DNA from: Deltaproteobacteria bacterium RBG_13_61_14
GTDB lineage: Bacteria > RBG-13-61-14
Direction: 5' to 3'
Length of the DNA: 12,323 nt
Assembly (NCBI GenBank): GCA_001797815.1
Contig: MGQK01000067.1
Span: forward strand, 2,205 to 14,527
Shown here piece by piece: positions 5,432 to 12,323 of this stretch. The notes below the pieces were generated by a model, which was given only the letters and a program-made list of their open reading frames with translations, ran no database searches and was not told the DNA's origin. The translations under genes were made by a program, and so were the position numbers. Within the stretch, counting starts at the first letter, position 1. Each line of letters opens with the position of its first letter.

Positions 5432-6436
5432 TCAGGGACGGCGATCCCAGACCTCGGGATTGGCCAGATGGATGGGCCGTTCGCCCCGGAGCCAGGCCAG
5501 GAGGTCGTTCAGCACCATGTCGGTCTGGTGGCGGACCACGTCGCGGGTGGCGCCGGCGATGTGGGGCGTGACAATGACATTGTCCAGGTAAAGCAGGCGC
5601 TCGTCCGGCGGAGGCGGCTCGGTGGGGAACACGTCAATCCCGGCGCCGGCGATGCGCTTTTCCTTGAGCGCCTGGTAGAAAGCGTCCTGTTCCACCAGGC
5701 CGGCCCGGGCCAGGTTGAAGAAAAAGGCGGTCGGCTTCATCAAGGCTAACTCCCGGGCGCCGATCATGCCCTGGGTCTGGTCAAGGAGCGGGACGTGGAT
5801 GGTGACCAGGTCGCTCTCGCGGAGCAGGGTGTCGAGGTCGGTGAGTTCCACCGCGGCCGCGTTCTTGGGGTCCACGAAGGGATCGCAGGCCAGGACCCGC
5901 GAGCCGAACGCCCGCGCCCGCACCGCCACCGCCCGGCCGATCGCGCCCAGGCCGATGATGCCCACGGTCTGGCCGCCCATCTCCAGGCCGGTCATCTTCT
6001 GGAAGAGCGCCATGAACTCGCCCGGGTCCTCAGGGTTGAACTTGCCCGAGGCGAGCAGGTTGTGGATGGGAATGAGCTGGCGGAGTTGCGCCAGCATCAT
6101 GGTCACGGTCAGGTCCGCTACCGCCGCGGCGTTGCGGCCGGGGGTAAAGAGGACCGGCACGCCCTTCTGGGTGGCGAGTTCCAGGTCCACGTTGAGCGGA
6201 TCGCCCCGGCAGCAGCCGATCAGCTTGAGCTCGCAAGCCTCAAACACTTCTTCATGGCACAGGTCCACTTCCAGGATGAGCACGTCCGCGGCCAGCTCCA
6301 GGAGCCGCTCGGCCAGGTCTTCGGCCAGATATAACTTTTGGGTCTGGCCCCAGGGCTCATAGACCACCTCCATGTGCTGGCGGAGCCGGTCAAGACCTTT
6401 CGAGGTAAAATTCGCGGTTACGAATGCTTTCAACAT
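5432..6436 (-). CDS. D-isomer-specific 2-hydroxyacid dehydrogenase, NAD-dependent
   Basis: About 334 residues, the normal size. The enzyme should interconvert a 2-oxoacid and a D-2-hydroxyacid in the cytoplasm. The Rossmann motif is VGIIGLGAIG (glycines near 162, 164, 167), with Asp185 at the end of the second strand, which favours NAD over NADP. The catalytic trio is present: Arg244 in NLARAG, Glu273 in FPTEP and His292 in TPHIAGAT. The usual RG after the arginine is RA here, a mild deviation. The frame extends 29 codons further upstream, but GGGAGGAG lies directly before ATG (6434-6436), so the start is here. The next codon, TTG at 6431-6433, has a better 5-nt spacing and would give MKAFVTANF, the usual family beginning, so it may be the true start. 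It is the first gene of a putative operon with the ABC exporter; substrate (glycerate, lactate or erythronate type) is unknown. Confidence 0.93.
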   Translation of the reverse strand: MLKAFVTANFTSKGLDRLRQHMEVVYEPWGQTQKLYLAEDLAERLLELAADVLILEVDLCHEEVFEACELKLIGCCRGDPLNVDLELATQKGVPVLFTPGRNAAAVADLTVTMMLAQLRQLIPIHNLLASGKFNPEDPGEFMALFQKMTGLEMGGQTVGIIGLGAIGRAVAVRARAFGSRVLACDPFVDPKNAAAVELTDLDTLLRESDLVTIHVPLLDQTQGMIGARELALMKPTAFFFNLARAGLVEQDAFYQALKEKRIAGAGIDVFPTEPPPPDERLLYLDNVIVTPHIAGATRDVVRHQTDMVLNDLLAWLRGERPIHLANPEVWDRRP

Positions 6437-6726
6437 CTCCTCCCGGACTATGGGATTAGAATAACGACCCGGTGCGATACTGCAACGAAAAAATTTCTTT
6501 CCGTCCCTTCGGACACGCCCCACTATACCTGATTTCCCCGGACTTTCGCAACTATCTTAAAGTCTCCCTCGATGCCCTTAACTCTTTGAATTAGCGAATA
6601 ATTAAACCAGGATTAAAAGATCATTACAAGTCTTGACAAAAACCTTAAGAACCCGAATGATGGTTAGCCAGGATAGTCCGACCCTTGTCATTCCATAAAA
6701 GCTTAACTCTGCAAAGGAGGTAGAAG
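6437..6726. promoter_or_regulatory. Divergent control region with a candidate sigma70 promoter for the TauE operon
   Basis: This 290-bp gap separates two divergent operons. Toward the right, TTGACA at 6633-6638 is followed after 17 nt by AATGAT (6656-6661), a 4/6 match to TATAAT, inside AT-rich DNA, which makes a fair promoter 65 bp before the next start. An inverted repeat GACTTT/AAAGTC (6541-6546 and 6559-6564, 12-nt gap) could be an operator but is short. Toward the left I found only a weak pair (TTGCAG, 16 nt, TATTCT) before the dehydrogenase. No clear -24/-12 element was seen. Confidence 0.5.
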
Positions 6727-7062
6727 ATGAAGCAGCGACTGCAATGGCTCCTCCGAAAATCTCCGCTGATTTGGCCAAAGCTTCGGGTTCCGGGATGGGC
6801 CGCCGCGCTGGTGTTGATCGCCGGCCAGGCGCTGGCCGCGGGGGGCAAGCCGGCGACCAAGCTCGTCAACGTGGCGGACATCCGCACCATGGGCCCAGGG
6901 CTCTCCCGCTGGATCGCGGAAGTTTACAACGACAACCTCTGGCTGTATGGAGCCTTGGTGGTGGTCACTATGGCGCTCATGGGCCTGATCCTGGGCACCG
7001 TTTTCGACCGGTTGGTGGGCATGCTCGGCATTGACCTGGGCAAGATCGAGCATCATGAGTGA
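6727..7062 (+). CDS. Small membrane protein of the DVU0150 type
   Basis: A 111-residue protein with two hydrophobic stretches: residues 22-38 (ending GQALAAG, which could be a cleaved signal peptide) and 71-93 (a firm membrane helix). Between them lies the segment KLVNVADIRTMGPGLSRWIA, and the end reads GIDLGKIEHHE. From memory this pattern matches the uncharacterised DVU0150 family, encoded next to TauE-like permeases in sulfate reducers; I could not check this. Its ribosome site AAAGGAGGT (6713-6721) is near-perfect and ends 5 nt before the ATG. It is the first gene of a three-gene operon, so it probably assists the permease, for instance as a small membrane subunit. The di-histidine plus acidic tail could bind metal, which is speculation. 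Confidence 0.85.
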   Translation: MKQRLQWLLRKSPLIWPKLRVPGWAAALVLIAGQALAAGGKPATKLVNVADIRTMGPGLSRWIAEVYNDNLWLYGALVVVTMALMGLILGTVFDRLVGMLGIDLGKIEHHE

Positions 7063-7065
7063 ATC

Positions 7066-7107
7066 AGGCCTCAGGCCTTGGGCATTAGGCTTTAGCCTAA
7101 AGCCTCG
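7066..7107. repeat. Palindromic 7-bp motif array between the first two operon genes
   Basis: The 65-bp gap after the small protein carries CAGGCCT-like units in both directions. The clearest element is TTAGGCT/AGCCTAA at 7085-7100 with a 2-nt loop, preceded by two overlapping AGGCCT palindromes near 7067-7079. The last unit ends just before the AAGGAGG of the permease gene. In the mRNA the hairpins could tune stability or relative expression of the two genes. No T run follows, so it is not a classical terminator. Confidence 0.65.
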
Positions 7108-7127
7108 CAGTTAAGGAGGATAGGTCC

Positions 7128-8171
7128 ATGGAGTGGTTTCAAGTCTATCTGCCCATCGCGGGCATTCAGTTCAATATCCTGCTATTGCTCCTGATCGGTT
7201 TCACGGTCGGCGTCTGCGGCGGCTTCTTCGGCATCGGCGGCGCCTGGATCGTGACCCCCGCCCTCAACATCTTCGGCTTCCCCATGCCTTACGCGATCGG
7301 GACCGACCTTGCCCACATGGGGGGCAAGTCCATCGTCTCCACCATCCGGCACGGCAAGTTCGGGAATGTGGACGTCCGCCTGGCGGTGGCCATGATTATC
7401 GGCACCACTACCGGCATGGAGCTGGGCGCGCGCCTGGTCATGCACCTCGAGCGCCTGGGCCTGGCCGAGTCGGTGATCCGCAAGATCTATATCATCTTTC
7501 TGTTTCTGATCGGAAGCTACGTGCTCTATGATTACTTGAGCCATATCTTGCGCCAGCGCAAGGCCGCGGAGAGCGGAACCGCGGTGAGCACCGGAGAAAC
7601 TTTCGCCCAGAAACTCCAGCGCGTCCGCATCCCGCCCATGATCCATTTCAAAGCCTCGAAAATCACTTGCTCGCTCTGGCTGCCGGTGGGAGTGGGCTTT
7701 GTGACCGGGGTGGTGGCGAGCGTGCTCGGCGTGGGCGGCGGCTTCATCCGGATGCCGGCCTTGATCTACCTGATCGGCTGCCCCACCCTGGTGGCCGTCG
7801 GGACCGACCTGTTCGAGGTCATGATCACCGGCGCCTACGGCGCTCTCACTTACGGCGTCAAGGGCCGGGTGGACCTGCTCGCGGCCATGTGGATGCTGGT
7901 CGGCGCCGCGGTGGGCGCCCAGATGGGCACCGTGGCGGTCAAGTATGTGCGCGGCTACTCGATCCGCCTGCTCTTTGCCGTCACTATCTTCATCGCCTGC
8001 TCCTCGGTGCTGATGAAGCAGCTTGAGTTCCAGACCGCCTCTTCGGTGCTCATCCTGTCAGCCGGCATCGTGATCAGCGGGGTGATCATCGGCTGGCTGA
8101 TCCAGGGCGTCCTCAAGGAGCGCGCCAGCCGGCAAGCCCGGTCCTGGGCGGCGTTCAAGAAGGAGGATTAA
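7128..8171 (+). CDS. TauE/SafE-family anion permease
   Basis: A 347-residue polytopic inner-membrane protein. The two family half-repeats are visible: residues 28-46 (GVCGGFFGIGGAWIVTPAL) and 194-212 (GVVASVLGVGGGFIRMPAL). Each is followed by a GTDL box (58-61 and 225-228) and a segment with the KGRVDL/FGNVDV pattern. About eight membrane helices are expected, with a charged cytoplasmic loop at 141-178. Family members export sulfite, sulfoacetate or other small organic anions; in this lineage an organic acid such as acetate or sulfite is plausible but unproven. The ribosome site AAGGAGGA (7113-7120) is strong. It is flanked by a small membrane protein and a lipoprotein gene in the same direction, so a multi-part envelope system is likely. 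Confidence 0.93.
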   Translation: MEWFQVYLPIAGIQFNILLLLLIGFTVGVCGGFFGIGGAWIVTPALNIFGFPMPYAIGTDLAHMGGKSIVSTIRHGKFGNVDVRLAVAMIIGTTTGMELGARLVMHLERLGLAESVIRKIYIIFLFLIGSYVLYDYLSHILRQRKAAESGTAVSTGETFAQKLQRVRIPPMIHFKASKITCSLWLPVGVGFVTGVVASVLGVGGGFIRMPALIYLIGCPTLVAVGTDLFEVMITGAYGALTYGVKGRVDLLAAMWMLVGAAVGAQMGTVAVKYVRGYSIRLLFAVTIFIACSSVLMKQLEFQTASSVLILSAGIVISGVIIGWLIQGVLKERASRQARSWAAFKKED

Positions 8172-8173
8172 TC

Positions 8174-8482
8174 ATGAAACTTGGGCAATGGATCGGGCTG
8201 GGGATCTTGATCGGTCTGGCCGCGGCTTGTGTGCAACCCTCGCAAGTGGTCCAGGGCACGGTGATCAATTACCAGGCGGACGCGAAAACCCTGGTGGTCA
8301 AGGATGAAAAGCCGCCCCATGCGGAGTTGACCCTGTCTCTCGAGTCGGCCGAGATCGGCGCGGAGCCGAGCGCGGGCGACGTGGTCCGCGTCGCTTACCG
8401 CGACCAGCAAGGCAAGCTCACCGCACTCCGGGTCATGAACCTGACCCGCCAGAAAGAACTAAGCGGCTCCGGGGGGCATTAG
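8174..8482 (+). CDS. Small lipoprotein of the TauE operon
   Basis: A 102-residue protein with a lipoprotein signal: basic MKLGQW, hydrophobic core, then the lipobox LAAAC with Cys19 as the acylated residue. The mature part (about 84 residues) begins CVQPSQVVQGTVINYQ and appears rich in short beta strands, with VVKDE, GAEPSAGDVVRVAY and RVMNLTRQ as likely conserved stretches. From memory it resembles the DVU0148-type lipoprotein near the same permease in Desulfovibrio, with an OB-fold-like pattern; both statements need checking. The start lies 2 nt after the permease stop and its AAGGAGGA overlaps the permease's last codons, so translation is coupled. It probably sits on a membrane surface exposed to the periplasm. 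A terminator follows. Confidence 0.88.
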   Translation: MKLGQWIGLGILIGLAAACVQPSQVVQGTVINYQADAKTLVVKDEKPPHAELTLSLESAEIGAEPSAGDVVRVAYRDQQGKLTALRVMNLTRQKELSGSGGH

Positions 8483-8516
8483 CGGCCCTCCCCCGGCGAA
8501 AATGCGCCAACCCAGA

Positions 8517-8548
8517 GGCGGCCCCGCACCGCGCGGAGCCGCCCTTTT
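8517..8548 (+). terminator. Rho-independent terminator of the TauE operon
   Basis: GGCGGC at 8517-8522 pairs with GCCGCC at 8538-8543; the interior can add CCGC/GCGG pairing. It is followed at once by CTTTT and shortly by another TTTT. Its place 35 bp after the lipoprotein stop fits the end of the three-gene transcript. Confidence 0.8.
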
Positions 8549-8582
8549 GCGTCTTTTCGGATTTGCGGGTTTGGCGGGTTTG

Positions 8583-9477: not shown

Positions 9478-11985
9478 CTAGAACTTCTCCATCTGTCCGG
9501 CCAAAAACGCCCGGGCGAAATAGTCGGGAGATGCTTCGCTATCCATGAGCATATCGAGCTGGCGGGCGCACAAGGTCAGCCGGCCGAGCTCGCTCAAGCG
9601 GCTGCGGATGAAATCGTGCTCGTATTTTTCCAGCCGGGCGACCAGGATATCCCCCCGCGACTGGACCTTAAAGTCCAATTGGCCGAGCACAGAGGAGAGG
9701 AACTTGACCCGGCGGGCCCGCCGCTCTTCGCTGGCCGCGCCGCCGGTAAAGCGGAAGTGGATATAGTTCTTGTTCAGGCTCTTGCCGCAATAGGTGTCCA
9801 CCGTGTTGAAGTGATAGCCGGCCTTGGTGCTGAAGTTCATGTAGCGGTCCGAGATGATGGCATAGGAGATCCGGCCCACCCCTTGCGCCTCGGCCGGCGG
9901 TCCGGCGATGCCCTGGCCGAGCACGGAGAGGAAGCCTTTGGTGGAGACCGCCCGGGGCTGGTCCCAGCGGATGCGCGGGTCGAGCAGGCCCTGCAGGAAC
10001 GCCTGCATGGGCGCGGAGAGGATGTCCCCCGGCCGCACCTGGCCGGAGGTCCGGGCGCCTTCGGCAATCCCCCCGCCCACGTCCAAGACCAGGATATCAT
10101 AAGGAAGGCTGCCCTGGAGCTTGAGCGAGGTTTGCTGGTCCGGAGAGGCCTCGGCCCCGAGGTAAAACATCACCTCAAAGACTTTCTCGTGCACGAAGCG
10201 GGTGAGGTCATGCAGCGACTGACAGTTCGAAGGTTTGAACTCCCGCGAGCCCGGATCAATCAGGTGGAGCGGCGTCACCAGCCGGGAGAGGTGGCGGAGG
10301 GTCAGGACCGCCGGCGAATCGTAAAGCGCCGGCCGGATCTCCACCGCGCTCTCGGGCCAAGCGATCTCGCCCTCGTAGAGCTTGCAGGAGTTGGCGTCCA
10401 CCGTCACCACTTGACCCGGCTGGAGCGTGGCGGTGGCTCCCTCCATCCCCACGATGGCCGGCACCTCGAACTCCCGGGCCAGGATGGCCATGTGCCCGCT
10501 GGGAGATCCCACGTCGGTGACAATGGCCGCAGTCAGCCGCATCACCCGGGAGAAGCTGGGCGAAGAATGGCGCGCCACCAGCACCCCGCCTTGGGGGAAT
10601 CGGTCCAGTTCATCATCGGTGCGGACCAACACCGCCGGCCCGGACCCGATGCCCCGGCAGGCCGTCAGGCCCCCGGACAACAGCGGCGGGCGGTCGCTTT
10701 CCACCGCGGGTAAGGCTCTTTCCACCGGCCGCGCGCTGAGCATGGACCGGCACTGCAAGATGAAAAGCCGGCCGTCCGGGTCTATCGCCCACTCGATGTC
10801 CTGCGGCCCGCCAAAGTGGGCTTCGAGGCGGCGGGCGGTCCGCCGGAGCAGTTCCAGCTCATGGGCTTGCAGGCACGATCCCGGTCGGGCCTGGACCGCG
10901 CCGGCCGCAAGCACGATCTCTTCCGCGCCCTGCTTGCCCCAGGCCACGTCCGCGGCCGCCTCGGCCACCGCGCTGATCACGGCCTGGTCCGCCTCCGGGT
11001 CTTGGAAATTGCGGGAGAACATGATTCCGCTGCACCGGGGCCGAAGCATGCGCAGGCACCCCACCGCCATGGCCGCCTCGGCCGCGGTCCGGCCCCGCTC
11101 GAAGCGGTAGGACACCGCCCCCTGGCTGAACGCGCTCGCGATCACCGAGCGATAAGCGTCGAGGAGCCAGCTCCGGCCCACGTTCAGCTCGGTGTAATAT
11201 TGTCCGGCATGAGAGGCGGCCCGGTCCTCCCCCAGCGCGCTCGAGCGCATGGCGACCAGGATTTCCTCGCTCCCGACCAGGGCCGCGTAAGCCGCCTGAA
11301 TTTCATGGGCCACGTCTTCCGGCACCGAACCCGCCAGGATCGCCAGTTGCACCTCCCGGCACGCCTCGGCCAGCGAGCGCGGCCCATACACCTCCAGAAT
11401 TTCCTCCAGCCGGTCGGTCCGCTCCCACAAATCGTTCTGCGACATGAACCTGGCAAAGGCCGCGGTGGTGATGACAAACCCTTCCGGCGCCGCCAGGCCG
11501 AGCAGGTTGCGCACCTCGCCCAGGTTGGCCATTTTCGTCCCGGCCCGGCCGGCATGGCCGGCCGTGAGCTCATCCAGCGCCATCACCAGCGGCCCGGAAA
11601 ACTGAGGCCGCAGGCCGGCGCACTCTATTTCCAAGTCCTCGTCCAGGCGGCGAAAGGTCTCATACAAGTCGCTGTAGCGGCCGCCGGCGATCTGGTTCAA
11701 GTCCTTCACCATCACAAAGACATCCATGGCGGCCCGGCGGATCTTCTGGACCAGGGGGCTGAGCGCGAAGGGTTTGAGCCCGGAAAGCCGGTCTTCGAGG
11801 TCGGCGATCAACTGCAAGGTCGAATCGTTGAGGTTGAGGATTTCCCGGAACCGGTCATACATCAGCCGGACTTTTTCGGCCTGGGTCAGGGCCGCCCCGG
11901 CCCGGGCCGAACCCGGACCCCAGGCGCGGAGCGCTGTCCACAGCCGGCGGCGCCGGCTCGGTTTCTCGTCTGGTTCCGTGGTCAT
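9478..11985 (-). CDS. PEP-synthase-like protein: ATP-grasp plus phosphohistidine domain with a non-standard C-terminus
   Basis: An 835-residue protein. Residues 1-130 are an uncharacterised N-terminal region with a basic start. Residues about 135-420 form the PPDK_N ATP-grasp/pyruvate-phosphate-dikinase-type domain: GTKMANLGEV (149-158), PEGFVIT, AMRSSALGED (245-254), AGQYYTELN and DIEWAIDPDGRLFILQCRS. Residues about 435-545 form the swivelling phosphohistidine domain, with His498 in GSPSGHMAILARE; the usual serine before the histidine is glycine. The normal C-terminal PEP/pyruvate-binding barrel is absent. Instead residues about 560-835 hold an unknown region with LVLDVGGGIAEGA (633-645) and GRISYAIISDRYMNFSTKAG (704-723). 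I recall similar proteins in Geobacter-type genomes, called PEP synthase without proof. It could autophosphorylate from ATP and pass phosphate to an unknown acceptor. The ATG has only a weak CAGG upstream, and the glcE-type stop is 21 bp before it, so the two are probably co-transcribed. Confidence 0.88.
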   Translation of the reverse strand: MTTEPDEKPSRRRRLWTALRAWGPGSARAGAALTQAEKVRLMYDRFREILNLNDSTLQLIADLEDRLSGLKPFALSPLVQKIRRAAMDVFVMVKDLNQIAGGRYSDLYETFRRLDEDLEIECAGLRPQFSGPLVMALDELTAGHAGRAGTKMANLGEVRNLLGLAAPEGFVITTAAFARFMSQNDLWERTDRLEEILEVYGPRSLAEACREVQLAILAGSVPEDVAHEIQAAYAALVGSEEILVAMRSSALGEDRAASHAGQYYTELNVGRSWLLDAYRSVIASAFSQGAVSYRFERGRTAAEAAMAVGCLRMLRPRCSGIMFSRNFQDPEADQAVISAVAEAAADVAWGKQGAEEIVLAAGAVQARPGSCLQAHELELLRRTARRLEAHFGGPQDIEWAIDPDGRLFILQCRSMLSARPVERALPAVESDRPPLLSGGLTACRGIGSGPAVLVRTDDELDRFPQGGVLVARHSSPSFSRVMRLTAAIVTDVGSPSGHMAILAREFEVPAIVGMEGATATLQPGQVVTVDANSCKLYEGEIAWPESAVEIRPALYDSPAVLTLRHLSRLVTPLHLIDPGSREFKPSNCQSLHDLTRFVHEKVFEVMFYLGAEASPDQQTSLKLQGSLPYDILVLDVGGGIAEGARTSGQVRPGDILSAPMQAFLQGLLDPRIRWDQPRAVSTKGFLSVLGQGIAGPPAEAQGVGRISYAIISDRYMNFSTKAGYHFNTVDTYCGKSLNKNYIHFRFTGGAASEERRARRVKFLSSVLGQLDFKVQSRGDILVARLEKYEHDFIRSRLSELGRLTLCARQLDMLMDSEASPDYFARAFLAGQMEKF

Positions 11986-12006: not shown

Positions 12007-12323
12007 TCAGGGCAAGTCGAGTCGTCCGGGATTAAAAAGGTCTTGCGGGTCCCATTCCCGCTTGAGCCGGCGCAAGACCTCGGTCTCGGCCGAGTCGGCT
12101 CCGAAAATGGGCAGTTCCGCCTTGATCGCGAAGGGCGCGTTCAGGACCATCGCCGAACCGCCCAGTCCCTGGGCCAAGGCCCGGAGATCGGCAATCGTGC
12201 GGTCCAGTCCCGGAGGCCAGCCCCGGTCTTCCTTGGGCTGCAGCACCAGGTGCGCCACTCCCACGCCGGCATGGGCCATGCGGCTCAGGCGCAGGTCGTT
12301 TCCCCGGTGGACCGAAAGCACCT
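12007..12323 (-). CDS. glcE: FAD-linked oxidase subunit, GlcE type, C-terminal part only
   Basis: The last 104 codons of a gene that enters from beyond the right edge; the in-frame GTG at the border is internal. Visible stretches include RMAHAGVGVAHLVL and the end LKREWDPQDLFNPGRL. The FNPGR ending is the classic C-terminus of FAD-linked oxidases (GlcD/GlcE/D-lactate dehydrogenase). The short spacing between the GVGVAH block and the end, and the LGGSAMVLNAP and KAELPIFGAD stretches, fit GlcE better than GlcD. In E. coli, GlcDEF oxidises glycolate to glyoxylate at the membrane; GlcE carries a flavin-binding fold. The next gene downstream, 21 bp away, is PEP-synthase-like. The exact subunit and substrate remain uncertain because the N-terminus is not seen. 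Confidence 0.75.
   Translation of the reverse strand, partial: VLSVHRGNDLRLSRMAHAGVGVAHLVLQPKEDRGWPPGLDRTIADLRALAQGLGGSAMVLNAPFAIKAELPIFGADSAETEVLRRLKREWDPQDLFNPGRLDLP

Follow-up and report, generated by a model that had tools for sequence, protein, structure and literature searches.

We describe a gene trio, encoding a small exported membrane protein, a TauE/SafE (TSUP) permease and an exported OB-fold protein, which is associated with dissimilatory sulfite reductase in the genomes that carry it and recurrently lies close to a gene for a PEP-synthase-like (PEPS-like) phosphotransferase. Taking these features together, we infer with about even confidence that the trio specifies a TSUP complex for a sulfur oxyanion, perhaps sulfite, which is under the control of the phosphotransferase or coupled to it; the association itself is directly observed, and it is to transport and coupling that the even weighting applies. 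The representative analyzed here comes from Deltaproteobacteria bacterium RBG_13_61_14, in a stretch of 12,323 nucleotides of contig MGQK01000067.1 (hereafter the window).

In the window, the three genes occupy 6727..7062 (gene 1, 111 aa), 7128..8171 (gene 2, 347 aa) and 8174..8482 (gene 3, 102 aa), all on the plus strand and separated by gaps of 65 and 2 nt. Shine-Dalgarno sequences can be read from the sequence ahead of gene 1 (AAAGGAGG / AAAGGAGGT, 6713..6721, +), gene 2 (AAGGAGG, 7113..7119, +) and gene 3 (AAGGAGG, 8160..8166, +); the open reading frames, gaps and ribosome sites thus bear out an earlier reading made from the sequence alone, which had recognized three close-packed genes, each with a near-consensus ribosome site. 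A sigma-70-like promoter, TTGACA-17-AATGAT (6633..6661, +; 10/12 match), lies 66 nt upstream of gene 1 in a region where a promoter scan returned four promoter-like sites against 1.0 expected. The gap between genes 1 and 2 holds a perfect inverted repeat, AGGCTTTAGCCTAAAGCCT (7089..7107, +), which could form a hairpin (z -2.0) and is found in a single copy in the host genome; an Rfam search returned no match, and we rejected a riboswitch or known RNA. The same sequence-only reading had placed a clear terminator after the trio, a claim that does not hold up: what follows gene 3 is a GC-rich hairpin (~8515-8547) with a broken T tract (8515..8550, +) and poor folding scores (z -0.83 for 91 nt and -1.79 for 56 nt), which a terminator scan of the region passed over and which might at best act as a weak terminator.

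The central gene codes for a TauE/SafE permease, as had been surmised, with residues 20-291 matching PF01925 far above its gathering score (2.4e-45; 155.5 bits against a cut-off of 32.6). We found no solved sequence relative of this protein in the PDB. In a fold search, BacA/UppP ranked first among solved structures (Z 12.7 at rmsd 4.0), but we rejected it as a fold identity and did not use further because these values fall within the range of unrelated helical proteins; no other clear match appeared among the matches listed. As regards function, TauE has been proposed as a sulfite exporter, and as a sulfite importer in Archaeoglobus (PMC3949148, citing Weinitschke et al. 2007), and TSUP proteins have been noted to be abundant in sulfate reducers, with functions that are not predictable (PMC5840216).

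Gene 1 codes for a small protein resembling the "DVU0150 family" model NF040783 (66.4 bits, 2.4e-18), just below the cut-off of 70, a narrow miss that may reflect poor coverage of its clade by the model; orthologues that do pass the cut-off, in the Desulfovibrio-like genome G025, show the same gene order, directly upstream of TauE. It also has a subthreshold match to Alph_Pro_TM (PF09608; 22.3 bits, 1.3e-4, gathering score 24.5), which is confined to the C-terminal helix and does not extend to the N-terminal domain of that family. The protein had earlier been described as a 111-residue two-helix protein, of which the length stands. However, a comparison of 80 orthologues reveals an A-x-A signal peptide, a short exported segment marked by VADxR and YN motifs and one transmembrane helix, with predicted cleavage at ALA|AGG in the window protein and AWA|AGG in the orthologues; hence, the first helix is better read as a signal peptide, and the protein most likely combines a cleavable signal peptide with a single transmembrane helix rather than two. 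An AF2 model of an orthologue likewise predicts a short exported segment followed by one long helix. The cytosolic tail is conserved among the orthologues, ending in EH(HE), with EHHE in the window protein.

Gene 3 codes for an exported protein with a signal peptide followed by a weak lipobox (...GLAAAC). Its earlier description as a short lipoprotein is apt for the clade of the window, which has the lipobox; most Desulfobacterota orthologues, however, have an ordinary signal peptide, and lipidation is therefore not a fixed feature of the family. By sequence, it matches DUF4881 (PF16222) below the gathering score of 27 (21.3 bits, 3e-4), and 15 of 28 orthologues match the same domain at E 0.01 or better. 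The model of an orthologue (L010) shows an OB fold like that of CusF (Z 10.1, rmsd 1.6 over 69 residues), and the predicted fold brought up the possibility of a copper chaperone. We rejected it since the ligands are not conserved: across 28 members the mature domain shows no conserved His or Trp and one Met (M88). The residues that are conserved are Q27, G28, D69, R72, M88 and N89.

To survey the distribution of the trio, we used three TauE query sequences and one genome per species, yielding 80 named loci, which, having been picked by TauE similarity to the query, are relatives by construction; they span about ten phyla at 51-84% identity. A small gene lies upstream of TauE on the same strand, typically 10-60 nt apart, in 79/79 testable loci, and a third gene lies downstream in 72/78, frequencies on which we reject chance adjacency. 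The small membrane protein is thus a fixed partner of TauE, as had been supposed from the window alone; the same supposition about the third protein is sustained in the 72 loci and fails in the other six. Among loci without it, TauE is directly followed by a UspA gene in four (L067, L069, L071, L088) and by a PEPS-like gene in another (L034). In two Sumerlaeota loci (L077 and L078), TauE and the third domain form one 470-aa protein joined by a transmembrane helix, which would therefore place the third domain outside the membrane; this fusion argues for a physical association of the two proteins. Rarity of the trio in other genomes had been named beforehand as the outcome that would speak against a functional unit; instead, the adjacency is near-constant across phyla and extends to fusion in two genomes. 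A pseudo-fusion of the small, TauE and OB proteins, assembled from loci with the three genes in frame and with glycine in place of the stops (45 rows, L010 first), yielded a model with pLDDT 81 and pTM 0.79, values to be read with TauE making up ~65% of the chain and with a tether that could mislead; it suggests a placement of the partners that is compatible with an interface, rather than constituting an interface test.

The TauE proteins closest to that of the window (L010-L028, 71-84% identical to it) are spread over MAGs of Zixibacteria, Myxococcota, Acidobacteria, Ignavibacteria, Calditrichaeota and "Deltaproteobacteria". Several MAGs of this clade stem from the same groundwater sites. Other loci show additional neighbors: PiT/CysP-type permease genes lie 2.5-3 kb downstream of the trio in L031, L032, L036 and L037 (the last matching PitA at 8.9e-34 and CysP at 5.4e-19), and PhoU/DUF47-like genes occur near it in L031, L032, L036, L061 and L083. 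Operons of Desulfobacterota include an extra ~80-aa two-helix protein (36 loci, e.g., L048 7430-7705) and an extra ~270-aa membrane-anchored protein (24 loci, e.g., L048 7828-8631), both absent from the window and neither matching a Pfam family above cut-off.

About 1 kb downstream of the trio, the window holds a gene that the sequence-only reading had not taken up, coding on the minus strand (9478..11985) for an 835-aa PEPS-like phosphotransferase (PPDK_N 2.1e-61; PEP-utilizers 2.7e-20). In 60/83 loci, such a gene is found no more than about 6 kb from the trio, and in an independent set of 148 genomes, 25/33 NF040783 matches have one within 13 kb; by our estimate, given 1-6 copies per 2-6 Mb genome, chance would account for a few percent. 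Their placement relative to the trio is convergent, divergent or in the same operon (gaps of 8, 17, 44 or 90 nt), and this changing arrangement therefore points to functional linkage rather than frozen synteny. The protein comprises a helical N-terminus, an ATP-grasp (PPDK_N) domain, a phosphohistidine swivel domain and, where the PEP/pyruvate barrel would be expected, an unassigned C-terminal domain (residues 550-835); R247 of the ATP-grasp and the catalytic H498 of the swivel (context GSxxGHMAxLARE) are invariant in 40 aligned members, as are H592, D593, R596 and H599 of the C-terminal domain. An AF2 model (pLDDT 84.7) resembles rifampin phosphotransferase over residues 130-539 (Z 39.2), and, with the full-length model as query, the part beyond residue ~562 had no structural match among the matches listed. 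We reject its identification as an ordinary PEP synthase since it falls short of the equivalog cut-off of TIGR01418 (247.4 bits against 739.75) and a Pfam search returned no PEP-utilizers_C, i.e., no match to the PEP/pyruvate-binding barrel; it is also below every NCBIfam equivalog cut-off among the matches listed. DsrA-positive genomes encode up to six paralogues (e.g., G162, G153 and G065), and the family probably has roles beyond the transporter because it is also present in several genomes without an NF040783 gene.

The kinship of this enzyme with PEP synthase and PPDK, both of which act on pyruvate, raises the alternative that the cargo is a small organic acid (lactate, pyruvate, glycerate or a sulfonate), which the PEPS-like enzyme would phosphorylate after its uptake by the complex. 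In line with this, the window includes genes recognized by profile search as a 2-hydroxyacid dehydrogenase (5432-6523, minus strand) and the end of a FAD-linked oxidase (12007-12321, minus strand), and, in D. vulgaris, transporters of the PSE family share their regulation with lactate genes (PMC4641369). However, the hydroxyacid dehydrogenase is not recurrent among the 83 loci, the PEPS-like protein has no match to the pyruvate-binding domain, and the linkage to DsrA set out below is much tighter than a carbon transporter would predict; we accordingly regard this alternative as unlikely.

The preferred reading, a sulfur oxyanion transporter, draws on the company the trio keeps at the genome level. 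DsrA (TIGR02064) is encoded by 34/39 named trio genomes as against 26/290 (9%) of a background sampled across the domain (Fisher 1e-24, a value that ignores phylogeny), and AprA by 32/39. Within the phylum of G025, DsrA is present in 30/30 NF040783-positive genomes, spread over about 14 families, versus 46/118 of the others (p 7e-11, ignoring phylogeny). The PEPS-like family, set apart by a clean score gap, with 56 genomes at E 1e-176 or below, is present in 56/76 DsrA-positive versus 0/72 DsrA-negative genomes of the same phylum (p 7e-24, again ignoring phylogeny). The trio is thus associated with dissimilatory sulfite reductase. This link is not absolute: five of the 39 trio genomes lack DsrA, four of them lacking AprA as well, and G358 combines the trio-type small gene, TauE and a PEPS-like gene without DsrA. 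Nor is it one of immediate neighborhood, with dsr, apr or qmo genes almost never found beside the trio in the loci examined (one aprA, L075). In the host itself, a different contig (C113:14000-32000, L094) carries aprA, qmoABC, a PEPS-like gene, a CoA-disulfide-reductase-like gene and dsrAB in one stretch, with this PEPS-like gene, the third of the host, sitting between qmoC and dsrAB. Hence, the host is a dissimilatory sulfate reducer, and one of its phosphotransferase genes is embedded in the sulfate-reduction cluster.

Could the link to dsr be a case of phylogenetic or transfer hitchhiking, with the trio serving a general anion or stress function in anaerobes? Genome counts are phylogenetically correlated, there are the five trio genomes without DsrA, and the window-clade TauE, 71-84% identical across many phyla, shows a scatter that suggests horizontal transfer or binning error of MAGs. 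Against this stand the 30/30 positives over about 14 families, the 0/72 occurrence of the PEPS-like family in DsrA-negative genomes of the same phylum, and the recurrence of the pattern in about ten other phyla as well as in a second TauE subtype (7/9 DsrA-positive). A spread over about 14 families and about ten phyla eases the phylogenetic worry without removing it, and we consider hitchhiking improbable.

That second subtype is found in the host as well, on a contig (C132:12000-28000, L009) with another TauE, a PEPS-like gene, a histidine kinase, a response regulator, an Alph_Pro_TM protein (TIGR02186, 114.5 bits), UspA and a DASS anion symporter. Nine of the 290 genomes encode divergent TIGR02186 proteins, with TauE directly adjacent in 8/9; the remaining locus begins close to the end of its contig and shows a fragment of TauE. 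Of eight Alph_Pro_TM loci examined, that of the host among them, seven have a PEPS-like gene at a distance of up to about 8 kb. Because these loci repeat the pattern, we see in TauE, a single-pass partner and a PEPS-like gene a combination that keeps recurring, the trio being one version of it. The view that TauE proteins normally work alone, voiced in the sequence-only reading, is thus too strong, since the second TauE of the host and 8/9 of the Alph_Pro_TM loci also pair it with a single-pass protein.

The regulation of these operons varies by lineage. A -24/-12 sigma-54 motif (10 or more of 12 positions) is found upstream in 30 loci, all outside the window clade, for which the count is 0/19; we therefore rejected sigma-54 control of the window operon, there being no sigma-54 site upstream. 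In D. vulgaris, DVU0150-DVU0146 is a predicted operon in the DVU0151/sigma-54 regulon, annotated as "transmembrane transport" with no known substrate (PMC4641369), and the motifs in the 30 loci agree with that predicted control. The statement in the sequence-only reading that the same trio occurs around DVU0148-0150 was right in substance, given the name of NF040783 and this published operon. No substrate is known for the TSUP and PSE transporters of D. vulgaris (PMC4641369, PMC5840216); our literature search on DVU0145-0151 yielded nothing useful beyond one paper, and the text of the RB-TnSeq paper mentions none of these genes.

Such regulators invite a further alternative, namely that the trio is a sensor or signaling module in which TauE, on binding an anion from outside, relays a signal to neighboring regulators, namely sigma-54 activators, CACHE histidine kinases and UspA. 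A divergent sigma-54 activator in G025, a CACHE/PAS histidine kinase in L080 with a homologue in L068, UspA in about 10 loci, the -24/-12 promoters of the 30 loci and DVU0151 control in D. vulgaris (PMC4641369) are all compatible with it. The regulators nevertheless differ by lineage, the window has none near the trio, and they are more likely to govern the operon than to be the recipients of its signal, leaving a sensory role quite doubtful in our estimate.

Returning to transport, the strong association with dissimilatory sulfite reductase is in keeping with a multi-subunit TSUP system that handles a sulfite-type substrate, a possibility already raised in the sequence-only reading. Sulfite would be our first-choice substrate, with sulfate and thiosulfate as further candidates, because homologues of TauE have been put forward as exporters or importers of sulfite (PMC3949148) and because DsrA is the best genomic correlate. 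We propose the following mechanism. The trio would form one inner-membrane complex of the TSUP permease, an obligate single-pass subunit and an exported OB-fold protein at the periplasmic face, which would move a sulfur oxyanion made or used in sulfate/sulfite reduction across the inner membrane. The OB protein might act at the outer face of the transporter, and the small subunit might brace TauE and present its conserved tail to the cytosol. The PEPS-like enzyme would take phosphate from ATP onto H498, from where it might travel through the C-terminal domain and reach the transporter, a regulator or the cargo. Sulfate activation perturbs the ATP/AMP/PPi state of the cell, and the flux might in this way be gated by that state or coupled to it. 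Phosphotransfer from the enzyme to the transporter is pure conjecture on our part. In its boldest form, the TSUP permease and its two subunits would have their flux driven or gated by an ATP-dependent phosphohistidine relay, akin to a PTS running on ATP rather than PEP, which would tie the transport of sulfur oxyanions to the AMP/PPi economy of sulfate activation and make the system a new class of transporter in sulfate-respiring microbes; we deem this version rather unlikely.

Two matters are unsettled in sulfate reducers, namely the transport of sulfite and sulfate and the handling of the AMP and pyrophosphate from sulfate activation; the PEPS-like family and the multi-subunit TSUP complex offer concrete genes for deletion in a tractable strain, and, if the coupling were true, they would represent an unusual means of powering or gating a secondary transporter. 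The operon as a predicted D. vulgaris regulon (PMC4641369) and TSUP as a family are already known. In a literature search that took in few subscription papers, we found no description of the multi-subunit arrangement, the PEPS-like partner or the near-exclusive presence in DsrA genomes, and searches on TIGR02186, on TauE/dsr evolution and on PEPS/PPDK-like genes in sulfate reducers returned nothing pertinent.

Among the closest known systems, the D. vulgaris operon, known here from PMC4641369, shares the DVU0150-family small protein (NF040783); the order of small gene, TauE and third gene is seen in the Desulfovibrio-like genomes G025, G070, G107 and G131. Compared with DVU0150-DVU0146, the window operon lacks the extra two-helix and ~270-aa genes and the sigma-54 promoter. 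TSUP transporters such as C. necator TauE, a proposed sulfite exporter, share PF01925, which the window TauE matches well above cut-off; in contrast to them, it has a dedicated small subunit, an OB-fold partner and a linked PEPS-like gene. The third protein shares its predicted OB fold with the CusF/SilF metallochaperones but shows no sign of the CusF metal site. With PEP synthase, PPDK and rifampin phosphotransferase, the PEPS-like protein shares the ATP-grasp and phosphohistidine domains and the invariant His and Arg; it differs in that no PEP/pyruvate barrel was detected and in the unassigned C-terminal domain with H592, D593, R596 and H599. Finally, the Alph_Pro_TM (PF09608/TIGR02186) systems with TauE share with the trio the C-terminally anchored single-pass partner, weakly similar to the gene 1 protein in the transmembrane segment, and the PEPS-like gene; they differ in that one protein carries a large N-terminal domain, whereas the trio has a small protein and a separate OB protein.
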